This document shows positions 16,610 through 34,521 of a stretch of DNA of 64,000 bases, piece by piece. The notes beneath the pieces are model-generated. The model was not told the origin of the DNA, ran no database searches, and saw only the letters and a program-made list of their open reading frames with translations. A program made the position numbers and the translations under genes. Origin of the DNA: Rhodospirillales bacterium (GTDB lineage Bacteria > Pseudomonadota > Alphaproteobacteria > Rhodospirillales > WMHbin7); the NCBI GenBank assembly GCA_016214125.1, contig JACRPC010000008.1, forward strand, positions 1-64,000. Reading direction: 5' to 3'. The stretch's first letter is position 1, and the number at the start of each line of letters is the position of its first letter.

Positions 16610-19600
16610 TCAGACTTTTCCTGGCAAAGAGACGATGAAGCGGCTTCCCTCCCCCACTTCCGATTCCACCCGGATCTGGCCGCCATGGCGTTCGACGATC
16701 TTCTTGCAAAGCGCTAGGCCGATGCCGGTGCCGGGATATTCGCGCCTTGTGTGCAGGCGCTGGAACAGAACGAAGATGCGACCGAAGAATTGAGGCGCGA
16801 TGCCGATGCCGTTGTCGGCGACCGCGATGGCCCAGAACTCGCCCTGGCGCTCGGCCGAAACGGTCACCTTGGGTCGCCGTTCGGGCTTGCGGTATTTGAT
16901 GGCGTTGCCGATCAGATTCTGGAACAGGCTGGTCATCTGCGCCTCGTCGGCCAGGACCTGCGGCAAGGGGCCGATGTCGATTTCGGCGCCGCACTCCTCG
17001 ATCAACCCGGCCAGATTGACCACCGCCTCGCGCACCACCGGGCTCAGCTCGACCGGCGCCAGGGGTTTGCCCTTGCGCGACACCCGCGAATAGTCGAGCA
17101 GATCGTTGATCAGGCGCTGCATGCGCGTCGCGCCATCGACCGCGTAGTCGATGAATTCCCGGGCCTCGTCGTCCAGCTTCTCGCGGTAGCGCCGCTCGAG
17201 AAGCTGCACGTAGCTGGCCACCATGCGCAGAGGTTCCTGCAAATCATGGCTGGCGACGTAGGCGAACTGCTCAAGCTCGGCGTTCGACCGGCGCAACTCC
17301 TCGGCAAGTTCGGCCGCTTTCTCCTCGACCTGCTTGCGGGGCGTGATGTCGAGAAAGGCCGTGAGCAGCGCCCGCTCGCCCTCGAAGTCGAACAGGCGGG
17401 TCGACATCAGGGCCCAGAAGAGGCTGCCATCCAAGCGTTTGAAGCGGGCCTCGAAATTGTCGCACTTCCCTTGGGCAAGGACGAGATCAACAAAGCGGCG
17501 GCGATCGTTGGGATCGACATAAAGGGTTTGCGGCGCCTGGCCAACCAGTTGATCGAAGCGGGCGTAGAACAAATCTTGGGCGGCTTGGTTGACGTGCAAG
17601 ATGAGGCCGCTTTCCGGGCGCGAAAGAACGATCGCCGACGGCACGGATTCCAGAATCTGGCGCAGCCTCTGCTCCTGGCGGCGGATGGCTTCGGTGGCCT
17701 CCTTTTCGGCCGAGATGTCGGACACCAGGGCGAAGGAGCCGATCAGCACCCCATTGGAATCGAACAGGCTGGTGGCGCTTACCCGGCAGGGCACGATTCC
17801 CCCGTCCTTGCGCCTTAGCTCGATCTCGTAGCGCCGGTTGGGCTTGCTCAGGCGCAAGGCCAATTGGTTGCGCATGACGGCGTCGCCGCCGGGCGCCGTC
17901 AGGCCCAAGCCGGGGCGCCCCAGAATCTCCGCCTCGGCATAGCCGAGAAGCCGGCAGAAGGCGGGATTGGCCGCCGTCGTGTTGCCGGCGATATCGACTT
18001 CCCAATAGCCTTCGGCCGAGGTGGCGATGACGTTGGCGAAACGGGTCTCGCTGCGCCGATGGTGCTCGTCGGCGGCTTTGTGGGCGGTGACGTCGATCAC
18101 GTAACCGAGATAGGATTCGACCGCGCCACTCGAGTCGCGCTCGATGGTGGTGAAATCGTAAATCGAGAGCACGGCGCCATCCGGCCGGACCAAGCGATAT
18201 TCCTGCTCGAAATTCGACCGGTTCTCGCGCGTATGGGCTTGAACCTCGCCGGCCACCCGCTCGATATCGTCGGGATGAACGAGGCGAGTAAAGGGCAGGC
18301 GGCCGCTCAGCAGATCCTCGGCCCGAATTCCGAACTGGCTGACATTGGGCGAGACGTAGGCCACCGGCCAACCTTCGCGGGCCAGCCAGCGGAACACCAC
18401 CACCGGCCCGCCGACGAACAGGTTGCGTTCGTGGCGCAGGCGGTCCTCGGCTTGGCGGCGTTCGGTGATGTCCAGGCCGGTCGCCACGATCTGGCTGGGT
18501 CCGCTGCCGCCGCTCAACGGGGCGAAGGTCCAGCTTATGTGGCGTTTGCGCTGGGCATGGTCGATCTCGGCTTCCAGGGCGGTGGTCCGCCCGTGCAAAC
18601 GGCATTCGGCGATCGCATGGTCGAGAAGCGATTGTTGGCGGGGCGGCGCGAAAAAGCGGCTGAAGGCATGACCCAGCAGTTCGACCTCGCCGACGCCGGC
18701 GGCTTCTTGGGCCGCCACCGAGGCGCGGCGGATGACACCGGCCTCGTCGAGCACCACCGTCAGCGCCGTCGAACTGTCCATCACCGTACCGACGAAATTC
18801 TTCTCGTCGCGCAGCGCCGCCGTCATGTCGCGCGCCAGGGTCATGGCCTGACGGCGTCCGGCCACCAAGAGATGGATGGCGAGGCCGAGGACGAGGCTCA
18901 TCACCAACCCGCCCGCCAGGACCAGGACGGCGCGGCCGCTTTCGGTCGCGCGTTCGAAGGGCGGCGTCGAACTGAATCGGAAGGACCACTGGCGGCCGCC
19001 GATCCGCATCTGCTTGCGGATCACGTAAAGCGCCGAGTGGGTAAGGTTCTCGGGATGGGTGTCAAAGACCACGGCCTCGGCGTTCTCCTCGATGCCGTCG
19101 AAAATGTCGATGTCGATGTTGGGCGAGAAGGCCACGACGCCCGACAACAGACCACGGAAGGAAAACGAGGCCGAAACCCAACCCCGCAGGGCGGCACGCC
19201 GTTCGCCGGCGGTGCCGATCGGTCGGTCCGCGAGATAGACCGGTAAAAAGGCCAGGATGTCGTCGCCCTGGGAATCCGGAGTCAGTTGGCGAAGGCGGCT
19301 GGTAAGCGCCATCTCGTCGCCGTCGCGGGCCCGCTCCAGCGCCTCGCGGCGATCGGCGCGCACCGCAATGTCAAAGCCGATGGCGCGGCCGACGCGATTC
19401 ATCGGTTCGAGATAGAGATTGACGTAATGCTCGGCCGGCAGGGCGGCGTCGCTTTTCGGGAAAACCCGAAAGGCGGGAAGTTCGGCACGGACCCGGGCCT
19501 CGAAGGCCGCCAATTGGCCGGCGGGGACACGGGCGACATAACCCAACCCATAAATGCCCGAATAGGCCCCATCGAGGTCGAAGGACGACACGAAGCGCCG

Positions 19601-21622: not shown

Positions 21623-21687
21623 TATCGCGGCCCCGGCGCGGCTGTCCAGCCTTGCGAGAAGGTGTGTCTTCGCTTCACAATGGGACG

Positions 21688-22488
21688 ATGAACGCCCCCT
21701 CGCCCCTTCTTCGCCTCAAGGATTGCGCCGCCCCCTCGGTGTTCCAGCCCGAAAAGCTGCTGCGCGAGGCCCGGCGGCAAAAGGGCCTGGCGGTCGATCC
21801 GATCCCCGCCCTAGGCGTGCTCGATCCCGACGGCGACATCGTCCGCCATCTCCAGGCGGCGAACCAGGCGCGTCCGGTTGCGGGCTGGCCCTGCTATCAT
21901 TCCCAGATGGTCGAGGCCTCGATCGGCGATCAGCGCCTGGGCTTCGTCGGCTGCGCGGTGGGGGCCTCCTACGCAGTGTTGGTGGCAGAACAGTTTTTTG
22001 CCGCCGGCGGCCAATTCCTGATCAGCGTCACCTCGGCCGGGCAATTGGCGCCCAAGGGACCGACGCCCTATTTCGTGCTGATCGAGCGGGCGCTGCGCGA
22101 CGAAGGCACCAGCCATCATTATCAGCCGCCTGCCGATTACGCCCTGGCCGATCCGGCGCTTCTGGCCCGGCTGGCGCCCCATCTCGATCATCTGGCCGAG
22201 CCGGTGCATCGGGGCGGCGTCTGGACCACCGATGCCCCCTTCCGGGAAACCGAGGCCGCCATCGCCGCCCACAGCGGCGCCGGCCTTCTGGCGGTGGAGA
22301 TGGAGGCGGCGGCGCTTTACGCCTTCGCCCAGGCGCGGCAAAAGCCGGTGGTCTGCTTCGCCCACGTCACCAACCGCATGGGCGAGGAGGCGGACGATTT
22401 CGAGAAGGGCGAGGCCGGCGGCGCCCGCGCCGCCCTGGCGCTGATCGAGGCCGTCGCCCGGGCCTGGCGGGCCTGGGGCGGCGCATGA
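21688..22488 (+). CDS. Nucleoside phosphorylase/nucleosidase family protein
   Basis: 266 residues of the PNP/UDP superfamily. Recognisable are LGFVGCAVGASYAVLVAEQ, the glycine-bearing ISVTSAGQLAP (phosphate site region), and the nucleoside-binding LLAVEMEAAALYAFAQ with the conserved MEA triad, followed by VCFAHVTNRMG. It resembles uridine phosphorylase-like members. The last bases overlap the start of the MarR gene (ATGA), so expression of the two is coupled, although a metabolic link with alicyclic acid catabolism is not evident. Confidence 0.82.
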   Translation: MNAPSPLLRLKDCAAPSVFQPEKLLREARRQKGLAVDPIPALGVLDPDGDIVRHLQAANQARPVAGWPCYHSQMVEASIGDQRLGFVGCAVGASYAVLVAEQFFAAGGQFLISVTSAGQLAPKGPTPYFVLIERALRDEGTSHHYQPPADYALADPALLARLAPHLDHLAEPVHRGGVWTTDAPFRETEAAIAAHSGAGLLAVEMEAAALYAFAQARQKPVVCFAHVTNRMGEEADDFEKGEAGGARAALALIEAVARAWRAWGGA

Positions 22489-22976
22489 CCGCGAAAAAGC
22501 CGTCCCGACCGGTGCCCGGCACCGCCAAGTCGGCGGCCAAGGACGAGGTCAACAACCGCCTCTTCTTCCGCCTCTTCCAGGCCGCCAACACGCTGCACAA
22601 GGAGGGGACGCGGGCGCTCGACGCCCACGGCGTCACCACCCAGCAATGGTCGGTGCTGGGCGCGCTGTCGCGCCCCCAGGTCGCCCAGGGCATGACGGTG
22701 GGCGCGCTGGGCAGTTTTCTTATGGTAAGCCGACAGAATCTCGACGGCATCTTGAACCGCCTCGAACATTCGGGCGCCATCGAGCGCGTGCAGTCGGAAG
22801 AGGACCGCCGCCTGCGCATGGTGCGGCTTACCGCCAAGGGCGCCCAGCTCTGGCGGGCGCTGACCCCGCTCATCTACGAATTCTACGACCGGGCGCTGGC
22901 CGGCTTTTCCTTCGACGACCGCATTCATTTCCTGCATTACATCACCCGGCTGCGCGACGGCATGCGCGAGCCCTGA
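22485..22976 (+). CDS. MarR-family transcriptional regulator (BadR-like by position)
   Basis: 163 residues with a winged-helix core: FRLFQAANTLHKEGTRAL, VTTQQWSVLGAL, MTVGALGSFLMVSRQNLDGIL (recognition helix) and the wing SEEDRRLRMVRLT. It lies just upstream of badH and badI, as the MarR-type BadR does in relation to cyclohexanecarboxylate genes in Rhodopseudomonas. Two inverted copies of a palindrome, CAATATATTG, sit at its stop codon and 60 bases before badH, and are the natural candidates for its operators. The inducer would be a pathway CoA ester (inference). Confidence 0.88.
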   Translation: MTAKKPSRPVPGTAKSAAKDEVNNRLFFRLFQAANTLHKEGTRALDAHGVTTQQWSVLGALSRPQVAQGMTVGALGSFLMVSRQNLDGILNRLEHSGAIERVQSEEDRRLRMVRLTAKGAQLWRALTPLIYEFYDRALAGFSFDDRIHFLHYITRLRDGMREP

Positions 22977-22992
22977 TCTGCCAATATATTGG
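22975..22992. promoter_or_regulatory. Operator copy 1 for the MarR regulator
   Basis: GATCTG followed by the perfect 12-bp palindrome CCAATATATTGG at 22981-22992, starting inside the marR stop codon. The same arrangement, GATCTGTCAATATATTG, occurs on the opposite strand at 23080-23096, 98 bases away centre to centre. Shared extended sequence in inverted orientation argues for specific binding sites rather than chance AT-richness. Confidence 0.7.
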
Positions 22993-23079
22993 CGCAATTC
23001 GGGAGTTCGGAATTGGACCAACTCAGCCTTCCCTGGCAAATGGTCAGGATCACAGACCCATCCGGGCGCCGATGAATAA

Positions 23080-23096
23080 CAATATATTGACAGATC
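23080..23096. promoter_or_regulatory. Operator copy 2 for the MarR regulator
   Basis: CAATATATTG at 23080-23089 followed by ACAGATC, the inverse of the copy at 22975-22992 (one mismatch in the 17-base unit). It lies 54 bases before the badH start, where bound protein would block transcription of badH. Confidence 0.7.
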
Positions 23097-23149
23097 AGAC
23101 CGGGCTTTTCACAATCCGCCCCCCACCCGCAACGGAGCGAGGACGCGAC

Positions 23150-23914
23150 ATGAAGGGAATTGCCGGCAAAGTGGTGTTGATCACCGGCGCGGCGGGCGCC
23201 ATCGGCCAGGCCCTGGTGGCGCGCTTCGCCGAGGAGAAGGCCGCGATCGCCGTTTGCGATCTCGATCGTGCCCGCGCCCAAGCGGTGGCCGAGCGGGTAA
23301 CCCAGGCCGGCGGCACCGCCCAAGCCTTCGCCTTCGACATCACCGATCACGGTGCCGTCACCGCCCAGGTGGCGGCCGTCGAGGCGGCGCTGGGGCCGAT
23401 CGACATCCTGGTCAACAACGCCGGCTGGGACCAGGCCGGCCTGTTCATCGACACCACGCCCGATCTGTGGGCGAAGATCATCGCCATCAATCTGGTGGGG
23501 CCGCTCAATCTTCAGCACGCGGTGCTGCCCGGCTTCGTCGCCCGCAAGCAAGGCTCGATCATCAACATCGCCTCGGATGCCGGCAAATCCGGCTCGTCGG
23601 CGGAAGCGGTCTATTCGGCCTGCAAGGGCGGCGTCATCGCCTTCACCAAGACCCTGGCGCGCGAGGTGGTGCGCCACAACATCCGGGTCAACGCCGTCTG
23701 CCCCGGCCCCACCGACACCCCCTTCCTGCAAGCGATCGGCGCCCAGGGCGCGCTGGGCAAGAAGCTGGTCGAGGGCCTGACCCACGCCATTCCGATGCGC
23801 CGCCTGGGCCGGCCCGACGACATGGGCGGCGTCACCGTCTTTCTTGCCTCCGACGAGGCGTCCTACATCACCGGCCAGGCCTGGAGCGTCTCGGGCGGCC
23901 TGACCATGATCTGA
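23150..23914 (+). CDS. badH: 2-hydroxycyclohexanecarboxyl-CoA dehydrogenase (SDR)
   Basis: 254 residues. Short-chain dehydrogenase: cofactor site TGAAGAIG at residues 13-20, VDILVNNAGWD-type segment IDILVNNAGWDQAG, and the Ser...Tyr-x3-Lys triad within NIASDAGKSGSSAEAVYSACKGG. Several family-specific runs (NNAGWD, HAVLPG, NIASDA, GSS.EAVY.ACKGG, VCPGPTDT, SVSGGLTM) match my recollection of Rhodopseudomonas BadH. It oxidises 2-hydroxycyclohexane-1-carboxyl-CoA to the 2-keto compound with NAD. badI follows 16 bases later, and a MarR gene with operators precedes it. Confidence 0.85.
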   Translation: MKGIAGKVVLITGAAGAIGQALVARFAEEKAAIAVCDLDRARAQAVAERVTQAGGTAQAFAFDITDHGAVTAQVAAVEAALGPIDILVNNAGWDQAGLFIDTTPDLWAKIIAINLVGPLNLQHAVLPGFVARKQGSIINIASDAGKSGSSAEAVYSACKGGVIAFTKTLAREVVRHNIRVNAVCPGPTDTPFLQAIGAQGALGKKLVEGLTHAIPMRRLGRPDDMGGVTVFLASDEASYITGQAWSVSGGLTMI

Positions 23915-23930: not shown

Positions 23931-24713
23931 ATGAGCTACGAAGACATTCTGTTTGCGGTGAAGGACGGCGTCGCCACCATCACCATCAACCGCCCGCAGG
24001 TGATGAACGCCTTTCGGGGCAAGACCTGCGACGAGTTGATCGACGCCTTCGGCAAGGCCGGCTGGGACAAGTCGGTGGCGGTGATCGTGCTGGCCGGCGC
24101 CGGCGACAAGGCCTTTTGCACCGGCGGCGACCAATCGGCGCATGACGGCGCCTATGACGGGCGCGGCGCCATCGGCCTGCCGATGGAGGATCTGCACAGC
24201 ATCATGCGCGACGTGCCCAAGCCGGTGATCGCCCGCGTCCAGGGCTACGCGATCGGCGGCGGCAACGTGCTGGCCACCATCTGCGACATCACCATCGCCT
24301 CGGAAAAGGCGCAGTTCGGCCAAGTCGGCCCCAAGGTGGGCTCGGTCGATCCCGGTTTCGGCACCGCCTATCTGGCCCGCATCGTCGGCGAAAAGCGGGC
24401 GCGCGAGATCTGGTATTTCTGCCGGCGCTACACCGCCCAGGAGGCCCTGGCGATGGGCCTCGTCAACAAGGTGGTGCCGCACGACCAGCTCGACGCCGAG
24501 GTGGCCGCCTGGTGCGCCGAGCTGGTCGAGCGCAGCCCGACCGCTATTGCACTTGCGAAGAGGTCCTTCAACCTGGATACTGAGAGCATTCGCGGCATCT
24601 CGTCCTTCGGCATGCAGGCCTTGAGCCTCTATTACCAGACCGAGGAGTCGCGCGAAGGCGTCAACGCCTTCAAAGAAAAACGGAAGCCCGATTTCCGCAA
24701 GCACGTCAAATAG
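23931..24713 (+). CDS. badI: 2-ketocyclohexanecarboxyl-CoA hydrolase, ring-opening
   Basis: 260 residues, the length of Rhodopseudomonas BadI. A MenB-like crotonase: NRPQVMNAFRGKTCDELI, FCTGGDQSAHDG.YDGRG, VQGYAIGGGNVLATICD and GQVGPKVGSVDPGFGTAYL are all characteristic. It hydrolyses the ring of 2-ketocyclohexane-1-carboxyl-CoA to pimelyl-CoA by a retro-Dieckmann type reaction, in the cytoplasm. Preceded by GGGGGAA before the ATG. It completes the badHI pair and leads into beta-oxidation. Confidence 0.92.
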   Translation: MSYEDILFAVKDGVATITINRPQVMNAFRGKTCDELIDAFGKAGWDKSVAVIVLAGAGDKAFCTGGDQSAHDGAYDGRGAIGLPMEDLHSIMRDVPKPVIARVQGYAIGGGNVLATICDITIASEKAQFGQVGPKVGSVDPGFGTAYLARIVGEKRAREIWYFCRRYTAQEALAMGLVNKVVPHDQLDAEVAAWCAELVERSPTAIALAKRSFNLDTESIRGISSFGMQALSLYYQTEESREGVNAFKEKRKPDFRKHVK

Positions 24714-24799: not shown

Positions 24800-26029
24800 A
24801 TGCACGCGCGTATTCTCACCGGATTGCTGATGGGCGCCGCCCTGGCGCTTTCGGGAACCGCCCACGCCCAATCGGCGGCCCCCGTGAAGCTCGGCGTGGT
24901 GGCCGACATCTCGGGCGTTTGCGGTCCGCTCACCAAATCGGGCCTGAACGGCCTCAAGCTGGCGGTCGACGAAACCAACGCCGCCGGCGGCTGGCTGGGC
25001 CGCAAGATCGACACCATCACCCGCGATTCCAAGACCCAGCCGCCCGAGGGCGCCAAGGTGACGCAGGAACTGCTCTCGGTCGAGAAGGTCGACATGATCA
25101 CCGGGCCCTGCTCGAGCGCCGTGCTGCTCTCGGTCTCGGCCACCGCCAAGGAATACGGCAAGCTTCTGTGGAGCACCATCGGCTCCACCCAGCGCGCCTC
25201 GATCGAGCTTGGCCATCCCAGCTTCTTCCAGGCCCAGGCCAATGCGCTGATGGAAGCCTACGCGGCGGCCGAATACGCCGCCAAGCAGCCGGGCTGGAAG
25301 AAGATCGTCACCATCGGCCTCGATTACGAATGGGGCCACATGACCGTGGAGAAATTCACCGAGCGCCTCAAGCAGCGCCGGCCCGACGTCCAGGTCGTCA
25401 AGAATCTGTGGCCGAAGCTGGGCGAGACCAACTTCAGCTCCTTCGTCACCGCCGCCCTTGCCGAGAAGCCCGACGTCGTGCTCTCGGTCACCTTCGGCGC
25501 CGCCACCGTCAACCTGGTTAAGCAGGCGAAGTCCTACGGCTTCTTCGAGCAGACCAAGCTCTTCACCTTCCTGCCGGTCGACACCGCCATCGCGCTGTCG
25601 GGCGACATGCCGGAAGGCGTGCACGGCTTCGCCCGCGCTCCCTTCTACGCGCTGAAGGGCACCGGGGTGAAGGAGTTCGTCGAGAAGTACCGCAAGGCCA
25701 ACAACGGCGAGTGGCCGGACGACTGGGCGGTGCTGGCCTACGACGCCTTCGGTCAGGTGAGCGCCGCCGTCAAGGCCGCCAAATCGATCGACACCCCCAA
25801 GGTGATGGAGGCCCTGGCCGCCAATACCTACAAGGGCATGCGCGGCGACATCAAGATGCGCAAGATCGACGGCAACGACATCGCGCCCACCTATGTCGGC
25901 GTCATCGGCCGGGTGAAGGACTATCCCTTCCCCGTGCTCACCAACGTCACCATCATCGAAGGGGCGCAGGTTATGCCCAGCGAGGACGAGGTGACGAAGA
26001 TGCGCGCGGCCGCCGCCGCCAAGAAGTGA
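24800..26029 (+). CDS. livK: ABC transporter substrate-binding protein (LivK/HAAT family)
   Basis: 409 residues with a signal peptide (MHARILTGLLMGAALALSG...AHAQ) preceded by GGAGGAG. The mature part has the periplasmic type-I binding fold of the branched-chain amino acid/organic acid family: VKLGVVADISGVCGPL, GLKLAVDETNAAGG, VDMITGPCSSAV. It would capture the substrate in the periplasm for the LivHMGF components that follow. Given the badHI/aliAB context, an alicyclic or aromatic carboxylate is more likely than an amino acid (inference). A terminator-like hairpin separates it from the permease genes. Confidence 0.88.
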   Translation: MHARILTGLLMGAALALSGTAHAQSAAPVKLGVVADISGVCGPLTKSGLNGLKLAVDETNAAGGWLGRKIDTITRDSKTQPPEGAKVTQELLSVEKVDMITGPCSSAVLLSVSATAKEYGKLLWSTIGSTQRASIELGHPSFFQAQANALMEAYAAAEYAAKQPGWKKIVTIGLDYEWGHMTVEKFTERLKQRRPDVQVVKNLWPKLGETNFSSFVTAALAEKPDVVLSVTFGAATVNLVKQAKSYGFFEQTKLFTFLPVDTAIALSGDMPEGVHGFARAPFYALKGTGVKEFVEKYRKANNGEWPDDWAVLAYDAFGQVSAAVKAAKSIDTPKVMEALAANTYKGMRGDIKMRKIDGNDIAPTYVGVIGRVKDYPFPVLTNVTIIEGAQVMPSEDEVTKMRAAAAAKK

Positions 26030-26041
26030 GGCGAGGCAACA

Positions 26042-26078
26042 GGCTCCCCCGGCCGTCGGTCGGGGGAGCCGCTTTTTT
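26042..26078 (+). terminator. Intra-operon attenuating terminator after the binding-protein gene
   Basis: GGCTCCCCCG at 26042-26051 and CGGGGGAGCC at 26061-26070 form a perfect 10-bp stem with a 9-base loop, followed by GC and TTTTTT at 26073-26078. It lies 12 bases after the binding-protein stop and 16 before the permease start. Partial termination here would give more binding protein than membrane components, a common pattern in ABC operons. Confidence 0.85.
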
Positions 26079-26093
26079 CCAGCGCAGGCGCCA

Positions 26094-26966
26094 ATGATCG
26101 TCGTCCAAATCGTCAACGGCCTGATGGAAGGGGCGATGCTCTTTCTCATCGCCTCGGGCCTGACGCTCATCTTCGGCGTGTCGCGCATCGTCAATTTCGC
26201 CCACGGTTCGCTCTACATGCTGGGCGCCTTCATCGCGCACAGCCTGATCCAGCAGTTTCCACCCGCCGCCAGCCTGCCGCTCTTCTTCGCCGAGATCCTG
26301 GTCGCCGCCCTTCTGGTGGCGCTGATCGGCGGTTTGATCGAGATCGTCATCCTGCGCCGCATCTACGCCGCCGACGAGCTGCACCAGCTCATCATCACCA
26401 TCGGCGTGGTGCTGATCGTGCGCGATCTGGTGCGCCTGATTTGGGGCGTCAACGACCTGTCCACCCCGATGCCCGAAGCCCTGTCGGGGGCGCTGCGTGC
26501 TTTCGGCATGTTCTTCCCGGCCTATCAGGTGACGGTGATGGCGATCGGCATCGGCGTCTTTCTGGGCTTGGTGGCGCTGTTGCGCTTCACCCGCTTCGGC
26601 ATCCTCACCCGTGCCGCCACCGACGATCGCGGCATGGTGGCGCTCTTGGGCATCAACCAGAAGCAGATCTTCACCGGCGTCGTCACCCTGGGCTCCTTCC
26701 TGGCCGGACTGGCCGGGGCGCTCTTCACGCCCTACGGCAACATCAACCACCTGTTGGACACCACCATCATCGTCGGCGCCTTCATCGTCGTGGTGATCGG
26801 CGGCATGGGCAATCTCTATGGCACGGTGGCCGCCGCGGTGGCGGTGGGCGTCATCAAGGCGCTGGGCCTTCTCTATGTGCCCCGCCTGTCGATGGTGCTG
26901 ATCTTCCTCATCATGGCCGCCGTGCTGGTGGCGCGCTCGATGGGGCGCAAGGCGGCGAACGAATGA
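26094..26966 (+). CDS. livH: ABC transporter permease (LivH family)
   Basis: 290 residues, multi-spanning. Typical LivH start (VQIVNGLMEGAMLFLIASGLTLIFGVSRIVNFAHGSLYMLGA) and the EAA-like cytoplasmic loop region ATDDRGMVALLGINQKQIF; the C-terminal TIIVGAFIVVVIGGMGNLYG segment is also family-standard. It pairs with the LivM permease encoded next, whose start overlaps this stop by four bases. Confidence 0.93.
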   Translation: MIVVQIVNGLMEGAMLFLIASGLTLIFGVSRIVNFAHGSLYMLGAFIAHSLIQQFPPAASLPLFFAEILVAALLVALIGGLIEIVILRRIYAADELHQLIITIGVVLIVRDLVRLIWGVNDLSTPMPEALSGALRAFGMFFPAYQVTVMAIGIGVFLGLVALLRFTRFGILTRAATDDRGMVALLGINQKQIFTGVVTLGSFLAGLAGALFTPYGNINHLLDTTIIVGAFIVVVIGGMGNLYGTVAAAVAVGVIKALGLLYVPRLSMVLIFLIMAAVLVARSMGRKAANE

Positions 26967-27907
26967 ACCGGCTGCTTTCCGATCCCCGCCTGCTCTTTCC
27001 CGCCGCCCTGGTGCTCGGCGGCGCCTACATGCTGCTGATGGACAGCGGTTCGGTCTTTGCCGTCACCGACATTCTCATTTGGGTGTTGTTCGCCGCCAGC
27101 CTCAACCTGCTCATCAGCTTCGGCGGCATGGTGAGTTTCGGCCACGCCGCCTTTTTCGGGTTGGGCGCCTACGGCCTGGCGCTGGCGATCTTCCGCTTCA
27201 ACCTGCCTTTGCCCTTGGCGGTGGCGGCCGGGCTGATCACCACCCTGGCGGGCGCGACGATCTACGGCGCGCTCTGCGTGCGCTTGACCCGCATCTATTT
27301 CTCGATGCTGACCCTTGCCTGCGCCGAGATCACCTTTTCCACCATCTTCCAATGGTACGACTTCACCGGCGGCGACACCGGCCTGCCGCGTTTCGTCGAA
27401 CCGCGCCTCGGGCTTTCCGCCCAGCATTTCGGCCTGGTGGTGCTGGTGGTGGTGCTGGCGGGGCTGTTGTTGCTCTGGCGGGTGATCCGCTCGCCCTTGG
27501 GGCTGGCGATCCAGGCGGTGGGCGAGAATCCGGCCCGCGCCCGGGCGCTCGGTATCAACACCCGGGCTGTGCAGTTCGCCGCCTTCGTGGTGGCGGCGAT
27601 GATGGCCGGAGTGGCCGGCATGCTGATGGCGCTGTTCTACGGCAACGTCTTTCCCGATTACGCCAGCCTCACCTTCTCGATCGACGTCCTGATCATGGTC
27701 GTACTGGGGGGCTTGCACAGCTTCTCGGGCGGCATCGTCGGCGCGGTGGTCTACAAGCTGATCGATCATCTGGTAAGCAAGCATCTGATGCTGTGGCAGA
27801 TGGCGATCGGCGTGGTCCTGCTGATGGTGATCATCTTCGCCCCCGACGGGGTGGTGGGCATCGCCAAGCGCCTGAAGACCAAACTGTTCGGCGAGGCCCG
27901 GCCATGA
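26963..27907 (+). CDS. livM: ABC transporter permease (LivM family)
   Basis: 314 residues with about nine hydrophobic segments. NLLISFGGMVSFGHAAFFGLGAY near residue 45 and the cytoplasmic coupling loop VIRSPLGLAIQAVGENPARARALGIN are signature LivM stretches. Forms the transmembrane channel with LivH. The next gene (LivG) begins in the last four bases. Confidence 0.93.
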   Translation: MNRLLSDPRLLFPAALVLGGAYMLLMDSGSVFAVTDILIWVLFAASLNLLISFGGMVSFGHAAFFGLGAYGLALAIFRFNLPLPLAVAAGLITTLAGATIYGALCVRLTRIYFSMLTLACAEITFSTIFQWYDFTGGDTGLPRFVEPRLGLSAQHFGLVVLVVVLAGLLLLWRVIRSPLGLAIQAVGENPARARALGINTRAVQFAAFVVAAMMAGVAGMLMALFYGNVFPDYASLTFSIDVLIMVVLGGLHSFSGGIVGAVVYKLIDHLVSKHLMLWQMAIGVVLLMVIIFAPDGVVGIAKRLKTKLFGEARP

Positions 27908-28656
27908 CCGACGCCGCCATCGCCATCACCGCTTTGCACAAGAGCTTCGGCGCCTTCGTTGCGCTCAACGATGTCAACCTGTCGATCCCGGCCGGCCAAC
28001 GGCGCGCCATCATCGGCCCCAACGGCGCCGGCAAGTCGACCCTGCTCAACGTGCTCAACGGCCAGCTCCCCTGCCAGGAGGGCAGCATCCACCTCTTCGG
28101 ACGCGACGTCACCAAGGCCACCCCGCACGAGTTGGCCCGGCTGGGCATCGGCCGGACCTTCCAGATCAGCAGCACCTTCCGCCATCTGTCGGTCGAGGAA
28201 AACGTCCGGGTGGCGCATCTGGCCCGCGTCCGCCGCGTCTTCAGCCCCTTCCCCGGCCATTTGCGCGCGCTCAAGGACGCTGTCGCCGCCAGCCTGGACG
28301 ACAGCGGCCTTAGCCAATTCGCCCGGGTCCGGGTTTCCGATCTCTCGCATGGCGATCGCAAGAAGCTGGAATTGGCGATGGCGCTGGCCACCCGGCCGCG
28401 GGTGCTGCTCTTGGACGAGCCCACCGCCGGCATGGGCCTGGCCGAGCGCCAGGAGCTGATGGATCTGGTGGTGCGCCATGTGGCGCGCGACAATCTCACC
28501 ATGATCTTCGTCGAGCACGACATCGAGGCGGTGTTCCGCCACGCCGACCTGATTACCGTGATGGCGGCGGGCACCGTGTTCGCCGAGGGCACGCCGGCGG
28601 AAATCTCCACCAACCCCGAAGTCCAGCGCATCTATCTGGGGAGCCACGCGCCATGA
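27904..28656 (+). CDS. livG: ABC transporter ATP-binding protein (LivG family)
   Basis: 250 residues. Walker A GPNGAGKST near residue 38, Q-loop GRTFQISSTF, signature DLSHGDRKKLELAMAL (SHGD instead of the common SGGQ, as is usual in LivG relatives), Walker B VLLLDEPTAGM and switch His in VEHDIEAVF. Cytoplasmic energiser with LivF. Coupled by ATGA overlaps on both sides. Confidence 0.94.
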   Translation: MTDAAIAITALHKSFGAFVALNDVNLSIPAGQRRAIIGPNGAGKSTLLNVLNGQLPCQEGSIHLFGRDVTKATPHELARLGIGRTFQISSTFRHLSVEENVRVAHLARVRRVFSPFPGHLRALKDAVAASLDDSGLSQFARVRVSDLSHGDRKKLELAMALATRPRVLLLDEPTAGMGLAERQELMDLVVRHVARDNLTMIFVEHDIEAVFRHADLITVMAAGTVFAEGTPAEISTNPEVQRIYLGSHAP

Positions 28657-29372
28657 TGCTGGTGCTGGAAGGCCTGCATGCCGGTTACGCCCAGGGCGCG
28701 GTGCTGCACGGCATCGACCTTCAGGTGCCCGAGGGCAAGGTGGTCTGCCTGATCGGCCGCAACGGCGCCGGCAAGACCAGCACCATGCGCGCCGTCGTCC
28801 ATGACTTGATCCAGATCGGCCAGGGCCGGGTGGTGTTCGACGGCGCCGACGTCACCCATCTGCCGGCGCATGCGGTGATTCGCCTGGGCATCGCCTATGT
28901 GCCCGAGGATCGGCGCGTTTTCGCCAACCTCACGGTGGCCGAGAATCTGGCGGTGCCCAAGCCCTGGCGGATCGCCGGCGGCGGCGCCGATTGGACGATC
29001 GCCCGGGTGGTCGAATTGTTCCCGCAACTGGGCCAATTCATGAGCCGCAAGGCGGGCGTGCTGTCGGGCGGCCAGCAGCAGATGCTGACCATCGCCCGCT
29101 CGTTGCTCACCAACCCGCGCCTGTTGCTGCTCGACGAGCCCAACGAGGGCCTGGCGCCGGTGGTGGCCGACGAGGTCATCGCCGCCATCAACCGCCTGAA
29201 GGCCGAGGGGGTGTCGATGGTGGTCTCCGAGCAGCATCTGCGCCTAGTCAACGAATGCGCCGACCACATCTACGCCATGGATCGCGGCACTATTGTCTTT
29301 TCCGGCAGCCCTGCCGATCTGGCGGCCAACCCCGATGTCGTGCGAAAATACATCACCTTGGCGCAACACTAG
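28653..29372 (+). CDS. livF: ABC transporter ATP-binding protein (LivF family)
   Basis: 239 residues. Walker A GRNGAGKTS, LGIAYVPEDRRVFANLTVAENL, signature LSGGQQQMLTIARSLL, Walker B LLLLDEPNEGLAPVV and switch His in VSEQHLRL. The GRNGAGKT and EGLAP runs are characteristic of LivF. It completes the five-component uptake system started at 24800. Confidence 0.94.
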   Translation: MMLVLEGLHAGYAQGAVLHGIDLQVPEGKVVCLIGRNGAGKTSTMRAVVHDLIQIGQGRVVFDGADVTHLPAHAVIRLGIAYVPEDRRVFANLTVAENLAVPKPWRIAGGGADWTIARVVELFPQLGQFMSRKAGVLSGGQQQMLTIARSLLTNPRLLLLDEPNEGLAPVVADEVIAAINRLKAEGVSMVVSEQHLRLVNECADHIYAMDRGTIVFSGSPADLAANPDVVRKYITLAQH

Positions 29373-31699: not shown

Positions 31700-32850
31700 T
31701 CCGCGACCAAGAAACCCTGGACAGCCTGGCCGAGACCGTCGCCCGCTTCGTCGCCGAGCGTCTGGTCCCCAACGAGGCCAAGATCGCCGACGACGACCGG
31801 GTGCCCGACGACATCGTGGCCGAGATGCGGGCGCTCGGCCTTTTTGGCCTCTCGATCCCCGAGGAGTATGGCGGGCTGGGCCTGACTATGGAGGAAGAGG
31901 TCCGCATCGCCTTCGAGTTGGGCCAAACCTCGCCCGCCTTCCGCTCGCTGATCGGCACCAACAACGGCATTGGCTCGCAGGGCATCGTCATGGACGGAAC
32001 GCCCGAGCAAAAGCGCCGCTATCTGCCAAGGCTGGCCAAGGGCGAGATCGTCGGCTCCTTCGCGCTCACCGAGCCCGAAGCGGGATCGGACGCCGCCTCG
32101 CTGCGCACCACCGCCAGGCGCGAGGGCGATCATTACGTCTTGAACGGCACCAAGCGCTTCATCACCAACGCCCCCCAGGCCGGCGTGTTCACGGTGATGG
32201 CGCGCACCAACCCGGCCGACAAGGGCCCGGGCGGCATCTCGGCTTTCCTGGTCGACGCCGGCTTGTCCGGCCTTTCCATCGGCAAGCCCGACAAGAAGAT
32301 GGGCCAGAAGGGCGCCCACACCGCCGACGTGGTGTTCGACCAGTGCAAAGTCCCTGCCTCGGCGCTGATCGGCGGCGTCGAAGGCCAGGGTTTCAAGACG
32401 GCGATGAAGGTGCTCGATCGCGGCCGGCTGCACATTTCGGCGGTCTGCGTCGGCGTCGCCCAGCGCCTGATCCGCGAGATGGTGACCTACGCCTCGAACC
32501 GGGTGCAGTTCGGCAAGCCGATCGCCCAGTTCCAGCTCGTCCAGGCGATGATGGCCGACAGCCAGGCCGAATGCTACGGTGCCCGCTGCATGGTCGAGGA
32601 AACGGCGCGCCGGCGCGACCGGGGCCTGCCCATCACCGTCGAAGTCGCCTGCTCGAAGATGATGGCTTCGGAAATGGTCGGCCGCGTCGCCGACCGCGCC
32701 GTGCAGGTGTTCGGCGGCGCCGGCTACATCGCCGATTACGGCATCGAGCGCTTCTACCGCGATGTGCGGCTGTTCCGGCTCTACGAGGGCACCACGCAAA
32801 TCCAGCAATTGGTGATCGCCCGCGGCTTGCTCGACGCCGCCAAGGGCTGA
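31696..32850 (+). CDS. aliB: Acyl-CoA dehydrogenase, probable cyclohexanecarboxyl-CoA dehydrogenase
   Basis: 384 residues with the three acyl-CoA dehydrogenase domains: FGLSIPEEYGGLGL, FALTEPEAGSDAASLRTTA (FAD site), NGTKRFITNA, and the C-terminal RNRVQFGKPI-like SNRVQFGKPIAQFQ. The catalytic base is the Glu of LFRLYEGTTQIQQ near residue 365. FAD-dependent, passes electrons to ETF. Placement between two acyl-CoA ligases and with badHI supports assignment as the AliB step (cyclohexanecarboxyl-CoA to the 1-ene). Another substrate, such as pimelyl-CoA, cannot be excluded. Confidence 0.75.
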   Translation: MIRDQETLDSLAETVARFVAERLVPNEAKIADDDRVPDDIVAEMRALGLFGLSIPEEYGGLGLTMEEEVRIAFELGQTSPAFRSLIGTNNGIGSQGIVMDGTPEQKRRYLPRLAKGEIVGSFALTEPEAGSDAASLRTTARREGDHYVLNGTKRFITNAPQAGVFTVMARTNPADKGPGGISAFLVDAGLSGLSIGKPDKKMGQKGAHTADVVFDQCKVPASALIGGVEGQGFKTAMKVLDRGRLHISAVCVGVAQRLIREMVTYASNRVQFGKPIAQFQLVQAMMADSQAECYGARCMVEETARRRDRGLPITVEVACSKMMASEMVGRVADRAVQVFGGAGYIADYGIERFYRDVRLFRLYEGTTQIQQLVIARGLLDAAKG

Positions 32851-32874: not shown

Positions 32875-34521
32875 ATGGACCTGAAATTCGTCTTGCCGCA
32901 AGAACGCATCGCCGCCATGACCAAGGCCGGCTTTTGGCACGACCGCACGGTGATCGATTTTCTCGACGAGGCCGCCAACGAGGTCCCCGACAAGATCGCC
33001 TTCACCGATTGGAACAGCACCACCGGCCAGGCCACGACCTTCTCCTTCCGCCAGATGAAGAAGCTCTCCGAACGCCTGGGCGCCGGGCTGGCCGCCCTCG
33101 GCGTCGGCAAGGGCGACGTCGTCTCCTACCAGCTTCCCAATTGGTGGCAGTTCGTCGCGCTCCATCTGGCCTCGGCGCGCATCGGCGCCATCACCAACCC
33201 CCTGATGCCGATCTTCCGCGAGCGCGAACTCACCCACATGCTGGGGCTGGCGGAATCGAAGGTGCTGGTGGTGCCGCAGCGCTTTCGCGATTTCGATTAT
33301 CCGGCGATGGTCGGCAACATCCGGGCCAAGCTGCCAGCGCTCAAGCACCTCTTGGTGATCGGCGGCGAGGGCGAGCAGTCTTTCGAGGCCTTCGCGGCCC
33401 GGCGTTGGGAGGACGAAACCGACGCCCAGACGCTGTTCGCCGGCCGCCGCCAGGGCCCCAACGAGGTGACGCAGATTCTTTACACTTCGGGCACCACCGG
33501 CGAATCGAAGGGCGTCATGCAGACCGCCAACACCATGTATTCGAATCTGGTCGAATACGCGCGCCGTTTGAAGCTCGAACAGAACGACGTGGTGCTGATG
33601 GCCTCGCCGCTGGCGCACCAGACCGGCTTCATGTACGGCATGATGATGCCGATCATGCTGAAGGCGAAGACGGTGCTGCACGATGTCTGGTCGGGCGAGG
33701 CGGCGGCCAAGCGCATCCAGGACGAGGGCTGCACCTTCACCATGGCGGCCACGCCGTTCCTGGCCGATCTCGCCAACCTGCCCACTTTGGGCAAGCACGA
33801 CATTTCCAGCCTGCGCATCTTCCTCTGCGCCGGGGCGCCGATTCCCGAGGCGTTGGCGAAGAACGCCGCCCAGCGGCTGGGCTGCGCCATCATGTCGGCC
33901 TGGGGGATGACCGAGAACGGCGCGGTGACCACCACCAAGCCCGGCGATCCCGACGCCAAGGTCTTCGGCACCGATGGCTGCGCGCTTCCCGGCATGGAGG
34001 TGAAGGTGGTCGACGCCGAGGGCAAGACCTGCCCGACCGGCAGCGAAGGTGATTTGAAGGCCAAAGGTGCGGGCATCTTCGTCGGCTATCTGAAGCGGCC
34101 GGAACTGAACGGCATCGATTCCGATGGCTGGTTCGACACCGGCGACCGCGCCCGCATGGACGCCGACGGCTACATCCGCATCACCGGACGTTCGAAGGAC
34201 ATCATCATCCGGGGTGGCGAAAATATCCCGGTCATCGAGGTCGAAGGTATCCTCTATCGCCATCCGGCGGTCCAGGACGTGGCGGTGGTGGCGATGCCCG
34301 ACGCCCGGCTGGGCGAGCGCGCCTGCGCCTTCGCAACGCTGAAGCCGGGCGCGCCGCCGCTCACCCTGGCCGACGTCAGGGCCTTCCTGGCCGAGAACAA
34401 GATGGCGAAGAACTATTACCCCGAACGTCTGGAGATCGTCGCCGAAATGCCGCGCACCCCCTCGGGCAAGATCCAGAAGTTCAAGCTGCGCGACACCGCA
34501 AAATCCCTAAAGCCGGAATAG
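32875..34521 (+). CDS. aliA: Probable cyclohexanecarboxylate-CoA ligase
   Basis: 548 residues, about the size of Rhodopseudomonas AliA, preceded by GGGAGGAG. Start (KFVLPQERIAAMTKAGFWHDRT), QLPNWWQFVALHLASARIGAITNPLMPIFRERELTHML and FGTDG are closely AliA-like. AMP-binding motif ILYTSGTTGESKGVMQT near 202-218; SAWGMTENGA; DTGDRARMDADGYI; GRSKDIIIRGGENI; catalytic Lys in TPSGKIQKF near the C terminus. It would convert the imported acid to its CoA thioester with ATP. Confidence 0.8.
   Translation: MDLKFVLPQERIAAMTKAGFWHDRTVIDFLDEAANEVPDKIAFTDWNSTTGQATTFSFRQMKKLSERLGAGLAALGVGKGDVVSYQLPNWWQFVALHLASARIGAITNPLMPIFRERELTHMLGLAESKVLVVPQRFRDFDYPAMVGNIRAKLPALKHLLVIGGEGEQSFEAFAARRWEDETDAQTLFAGRRQGPNEVTQILYTSGTTGESKGVMQTANTMYSNLVEYARRLKLEQNDVVLMASPLAHQTGFMYGMMMPIMLKAKTVLHDVWSGEAAAKRIQDEGCTFTMAATPFLADLANLPTLGKHDISSLRIFLCAGAPIPEALAKNAAQRLGCAIMSAWGMTENGAVTTTKPGDPDAKVFGTDGCALPGMEVKVVDAEGKTCPTGSEGDLKAKGAGIFVGYLKRPELNGIDSDGWFDTGDRARMDADGYIRITGRSKDIIIRGGENIPVIEVEGILYRHPAVQDVAVVAMPDARLGERACAFATLKPGAPPLTLADVRAFLAENKMAKNYYPERLEIVAEMPRTPSGKIQKFKLRDTAKSLKPE

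Follow-up and report, generated by a model that had tools for sequence, protein, structure and literature searches.

What might an operator do when it lies at the end of the gene for its own repressor? The question is raised by a stretch of 64,000 nucleotides from a Rhodospirillales bacterium (assembly GCA_016214125.1, contig JACRPC010000008.1, positions 1 to 64,000; here called the window), in which a badR-like gene reads into a badH-like gene and one palindromic sequence occurs both at the end of the first gene and at the predicted promoter of the second.

Two matching sites between the badR-like and badH-like genes

The 10-mer CAATATATTG is found at 22982-22991 and at 23080-23089, 98 bp apart from start to start, with no third match of up to one mismatch in the window (0.30 expected; two or more were reached in 7 of 100 shuffles). 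An earlier, sequence-only reading of this DNA had described two inverted copies of an extended version of this motif, alike in the flank as well as in the core. The copies and their coordinates were borne out: GATCTGYCAATATATTG is present exactly at 22975-22991 on the plus strand and at 23080-23096 on the minus strand, and nowhere else in the window with up to three mismatches (0.07 expected; none of 100 shuffles reached two). The flank match is even longer than was first claimed. The two arms, which we refer to as the distal site or site 1 (22973-22991, plus strand, CTGATCTGCCAATATATTG, core at 22982-22991) and the proximal site or site 2 (23080-23098, minus strand, CAATATATTGACAGATCAG as read on the plus strand, core at 23080-23089), are each 19 nt long, lie 88 nt apart and are complementary at 18 of 19 positions; in an RNA fold the pairing of the arms resumes, as GCCC with GGGC, beyond an unpaired stretch. 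Outward from the core, 8 of 9 flank positions match, for which a Monte Carlo estimate gave a chance of about 6 in 10,000. Note that the word "inverted" holds for the flanks and not for the core, which is a perfect palindrome and has no orientation.

When the whole genome (3.99 Mb) was searched with up to three mismatches, the 19-mer was found at the two sites only, and a reversed control pattern gave one match. The bare 10-mer CAATATATTG was found at 5 places genome-wide (0 for its reversed control) and CAATNNATTG at 19 (2 for its reversed control), while the looser pattern CAAN4TTG was not enriched in the window (15 observed versus 10.3 expected).

The badR-like gene ends in a stop codon (22974-22976) that falls within the matching arm, 5 nt ahead of the core of site 1. 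A second inverted repeat, this one imperfect (83%), immediately follows site 1 (window 22989-23021; TTGGCGCAATTC and GAATTGGACCAA, 9 nt apart). At the other end of the gap, a sigma-70-type promoter for badH was predicted on the plus strand at 23087-23115, with TTGACA (23087-23092) and CACAAT (23110-23115) separated by 17 nt; it has 10 of the 12 consensus bases, and 0.1 such promoters were expected in shuffles of the region. The predicted -35 box begins within site 2. Site 1 overlaps no promoter predicted in the same scan (22900-23200), and overlap with a promoter was found for site 2 only. For annotation, this supports placing the badH promoter at 23087-23115. Two further candidates were rejected on the scan of 22900-23200: a divergent promoter at site 1 reading into badR, for which the minus strand offers TTGGCA, yet none was predicted, and an intrinsic terminator between badR and badH, of which none was found.

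The badR-like gene and the downstream operon

The badR-like gene (22485-22976, plus strand) was assigned from its open reading frame, Pfam matches and identity to homologues; its start is an ATG that we chose, giving a protein of 163 aa, and the open frame begins earlier. The product matches Pfam MarR_2 (E 1.6e-10) and MarR (E 2.9e-09), both above their cut-offs, as a MarR-type winged-helix protein does. It shares 60-67% identity with five homologues from beta-proteobacterial bad loci and 54% with one homologue from the same order, and the string VSRQNL is invariant across 7 aligned proteins. Homologues of at least 45% identity adjoin badH in 45 other loci, in a comparison made with homologues rather than with a characterised BadR. 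Judged by these sequence comparisons, the window protein appears to be a BadR homologue, and for annotation they support naming 22485-22976 badR-like.

Immediately upstream, a gene of the phosphorylase superfamily (window 21652-22488) has a stop codon that overlaps the chosen badR ATG by 4 bp, and the two genes may be transcribed together. Between 21400 and 22600 the promoter scan gave none on the plus strand and only one on the minus strand. Because the chosen badR start lies inside the end of the preceding gene, neither site is likely to govern initiation at badR if the gene starts at that ATG, and the badR promoter would then likely lie further upstream. An operator ahead of the phosphorylase-badR unit was also considered and rejected, the nearest CAAN4TTG upstream of site 1 being at 17861.

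The badR-like gene runs in the same direction as badH. The badH-like gene (2-hydroxycyclohexanecarboxyl-CoA dehydrogenase; 23150-23914, plus strand) encodes the best match of this genome to TIGR03206, which is also its best family, with 340.7 bits, below the cut-off of 431.2. It is followed by badI (2-ketocyclohexanecarboxyl-CoA hydrolase; 23931-24713, plus strand), with 488.6 bits against TIGR03210, above the cut-off of 467.6. Also downstream of badI are an acetate-CoA-ligase-like gene, then a gene for an acyl-CoA dehydrogenase (31702-32850, plus strand) and an aliA-like gene for a cyclohexanecarboxylate-CoA ligase (32875-34521, plus strand; TIGR03208 760.2 bits, below the cut-off of 792.3). 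Between badI and the CoA ligases lies a branched-chain-type ABC transporter set (window 24800-29372; frames by eye), with a substrate-binding protein recognised by Pfam and an ATP-binding subunit that resembles UrtE; the set perhaps serves uptake of the ring acid.

The acyl-CoA dehydrogenase encoded at 31702 scores 206 bits against the AliB family TIGR03207, versus a cut-off of 575, and is 67-72% identical to the product of the gene right after badI in beta- and gamma-proteobacterial loci, a position that belongs to aabA according to PMC9795900. From these matches it is probably AabA-like, in the sense of the bad-ali-aab clusters, rather than AliB, and we dropped the name aliB for it, the aabA position being the better fit. 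No clear AliB was found in the genome, where the best acyl-CoA dehydrogenase reached 238 bits versus the cut-off of 575; this cut-off may be too strict for distant AliB. Of the five-gene bad-ali set (aliA, aliB, badK, badH and badI), the search covered the four genes other than badK: badI is above its cut-off, badH and the aliA-like gene are below theirs, and there is no clear aliB. With every acyl-CoA dehydrogenase of the genome far below the AliB cut-off, both the pathway's substrate and its inducer are less certain than the name implies. The effectors given in PMC9795900 are cyclohexanecarboxyl-CoA for Aromatoleum sp. CIB and, as cited there, 2-ketocyclohexanecarboxyl-CoA for R. palustris; the pathway here might begin from another compound, and the inducer may differ from the published one.

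Comparison with published BadR operators

The BadR operator has been described as CAATnnATTG, that is, 4-bp inverted repeats with a spacer of 2 bp (up to 4) (PMC9795900), and both cores in the window fit this consensus exactly. In gel shifts reported there for Aromatoleum sp. CIB, binding was lost when either of the first two bases of the repeat was changed or the 2-bp spacer was taken out, and changes in the third or fourth base cost little of it. At the R. palustris badH promoter, the operator CAATacATTG (Hirakawa et al. 2015, as cited in PMC9795900) is like the window sites in its core, in its place at a badH promoter and in having a MarR-type repressor gene adjacent. The arrangement differs, however: the R. 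palustris badR and badH operon diverge (cited in PMC9795900), whereas the window has badR upstream in the same direction, and two sites. Strain CIB likewise has two operators with the same core in one gap, between aliB and aliA, and overlap with a -35 box, which is predicted here for site 2, is a further likeness; but in CIB each operator lies on the predicted -35 box of its own divergent promoter (aliB or aliA; PMC9795900), whereas here only the badH promoter is predicted and site 1 falls where badR ends.

From sequence and from these parallels, we consider it highly probable that the BadR-type MarR repressor encoded immediately upstream has both sites as its operators. The sequence-only reading had named the adjacent MarR protein as the likely binder, and this is well supported by the published consensus, by homology to BadR and by the predicted overlap with the -35 box. 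The pairing of site and repressor is known in kind and mostly ordinary; what is unusual is the gene order, together with the presence of a further site where the repressor gene ends. A literature search that covered few subscription papers turned up no badR that is co-directional and has an operator at its end.

Gene order and operators in related loci

To place the locus among its relatives, we used BadR matches from genome_contigs (38 loci), from the order (297 genomes, 5 of them matching, the window's own included) and from the phylum (398 genomes, 10 of them matching, its own included), as well as badI matches from 385 genomes of the class (44 with a match, its own included; 10 above the cut-off; 30 loci taken). 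In 33 of the 38 genome_contigs loci with this protein, badH lies beside it. Fifty-three loci with badR were counted, and 46 of these also have badH; the other seven lack badH at 50% identity or more within the piece (L008, L009, L024, L039, L041, L046 and L100). Loci without badR were left uncounted, as were those, L047 and L099 included, with a badR match below 45% identity or one that did not reach E 1e-20. We also skipped L097 and L098, which are the same places as L048 and L049, the copies of the window (L004, L052, L084, L089 and L090), L001-L003 and L078-L088.

The gene order of the window stands alone in this set: badR is divergent from badH in 45 of the 46 loci and upstream, reading into badH, in one, the window itself, among loci that are not independent, many being close relatives drawn from genome sets that may overlap. 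The genus is represented by the window's own genome alone in the set searched. L009, which is outside the 46, has a partial badH, badI and then badR in one direction, with badR downstream. L041 was considered as another co-directional badR-badH pair and rejected, its second gene being 48% identical, below the 50% limit, and its gap lacking CAATNNATTG. Plasmids were compared separately from the 46, in 8 of 21 matching records and with a 45% identity limit. There badR is divergent from badH in four of the eight loci (L101, L102, L104 and L108) and downstream in the same direction in L107, badH is absent from L103, L105 and L106, and exact CAATNNATTG occurs in none of the eight.

A motif search ahead of orthologous badH genes, which the sequence-only reading had suggested as a check, came out in part: an exact site, CAATATATTG or CAATGTATTG, is present in 5 of the 45 divergent badR-badH gaps, one in each (L006, L051, L055, L092 and L093), and exact CAATNNATTG is absent from the other 40, with 60 bases into each gene included. 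In three beta-proteobacterial loci in which the aliA-like gene was mapped (L010, L021 and L026), the sites lie instead in the gap before that gene, and many loci have no exact site within the piece examined. Seven site-less divergent gaps were re-inspected for the eight fixed bases, with no chance control; L007, L048 and L091 contain a one-mismatch site, and L049, L094, L095 and L096 a two-mismatch site only. In L097 (the L048 place), a badR homologue that is divergent has CAATCAATTG 14 nt past its stop codon, at 1959-1968, where the motif also overlaps the end of a converging frame; this may be another instance of a badR gene with a site at its end.

The flank was compared across 24 orthologous operators, hand-picked from exact CAATNNATTG matches in bad loci; matches away from the promoters considered (L031:9240, L036:319, L044:8034 and L048:3687 (L097:1959)) were left out. 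ATTGAC is present on at least one side in 23 of the 24 selected operators and ATTGACA in 16; the flank ACAGA occurs in 7 and ACAGAT in 2, and GATC is absent from flank positions 4-7 in all 24. Other operators thus share the inner flank of the window sites, mainly by way of the -35 box, and none of the 24 has the outer flank. The sequence-only reading had taken the shared flank as a sign of looping or cooperative binding. Because the inner part of the flank coincides with the -35 box or with an extension common among operators, flank identity alone is no argument for cooperativity, and a match on one side only fits an inverted duplication at least as well.

Possible roles of the two sites

In the mechanism that we propose, a BadR dimer bound to site 2 when the pathway CoA ester is absent would cover the -35 box of badH and exclude RNA polymerase, and a ring-carboxyl-CoA intermediate would release it. 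Repression from site 2 through coverage of the -35 box is likely, by analogy with BadR elsewhere. Because badR reads into badH with no terminator found between them, we propose that a second dimer would use site 1 as an accessory operator and form a roadblock to transcripts leaving badR. That site 1 keeps badR transcripts from switching on the operon is a tentative suggestion drawn from one genome. Similarly tentative is the combined picture, in which the MarR repressor might guard its operon twice, with one dimer at the -35 box and another at the end of its own gene, the latter providing a ligand-controlled stop that insulates badH from read-through. Bound LacI can halt an elongating polymerase (roadblocks are reviewed in PMC10310618); LacI is not a MarR protein, however, and its likeness to BadR here is one of analogy.

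Two BadR dimers could also interact with each other across both operators, through looping or cooperative binding, and so tighten repression of the badH promoter. The two identical cores ahead of badH are in keeping with this, as are operator pairs 143 and 145 bp apart in L026 and L027 and the pair in the CIB aliB-aliA gap, although PMC9795900 places the latter operators each on a -35 box of its own and not in a loop. Furthermore, where a divergent badR-badH gap does contain an exact site (five cases), it contains just one, and a narrow literature search found no paper on MarR looping with two operators. The 98-bp distance corresponds to 9.33 turns (10.5 bp per turn), a value that speaks neither for nor against a loop. 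MarR proteins are dimeric and are not known to carry a tetramerisation domain. We regard an interaction of this kind as rather unlikely, and think that in this one genome a roadblock is more likely than a loop, because a roadblock accounts for an extra site occurring together with the co-directional gene order. The extent of the flank match makes us take seriously a rival in which site 1 has little regulatory role and is an evolutionary by-product: part of the badH promoter (operator and -35 region) would have been copied, inverted, to the end of badR, perhaps landing there when the gene order, which is unusual, changed. The match indeed exceeds the known operator, comprising CAGATCAG and then, past a gap, GGGC; the absence of GATC from the 24 selected operators and of any further 19-mer (up to three mismatches) from the genome point the same way. 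On the other hand, the 7 of 24 operators with ACAGA on the same flank suggest that part of the match may be ordinary, and the site 1 core is perfect whereas its copy of the -35 box has changed to TTGGCA, a hint of selection on the core, for which a single base is too little for certainty. Such a duplication is possible, and to us just as likely as the roadblock.

The inverted repeat might work instead as RNA, through a stem in read-through transcripts that holds the badR stop codon and shields the end of badR or is cut by RNase III. The fold of 22965-23105 is stable (-52.1 kcal/mol, z -3.23, none of 200 shuffles as stable), but any two palindromic operators with a shared flank would yield such a stem, and the 45 divergent loci, with at most one exact site in the gap, give no sign of a conserved RNA; we consider this role improbable. 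Least probable by far are chance palindromes with no function. The bare 10-mer does occur at three other genomic places, beside unrelated-looking genes, and the loose CAAN4TTG is not enriched in the window, but two copies with matching flanks arose in none of 100 shuffles, and the core is the published consensus, lying on the -35 box predicted for badH, the expected target. With this locus, the operator consensus from the literature now covers a genome whose repressor gene runs into the operon that it targets, and nature offers here a modest experiment on whether a MarR repressor can stop a passing polymerase as well as initiation.

Other copies of the core

A wider regulon defined by the exact 10-mer was considered and rejected: the three other genomic copies show no visible link to the pathway, their neighbours (frames by eye) being transporter-like and TPR-like, nuclease-like and helix-turn-helix, and two DNA-binding or protease-like frames. 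Because these three copies adjoin genes with no visible pathway link, the core alone does not prove function. L088 was also rejected as a regulon member; it has CAATGTATTG followed by AC, yet no pathway gene by eye. In L001, another genomic CAATATATTG lies inside a longer perfect palindrome, TGGCAATATATTGCCA (1498-1513), at or near the start of a TPR-like frame.
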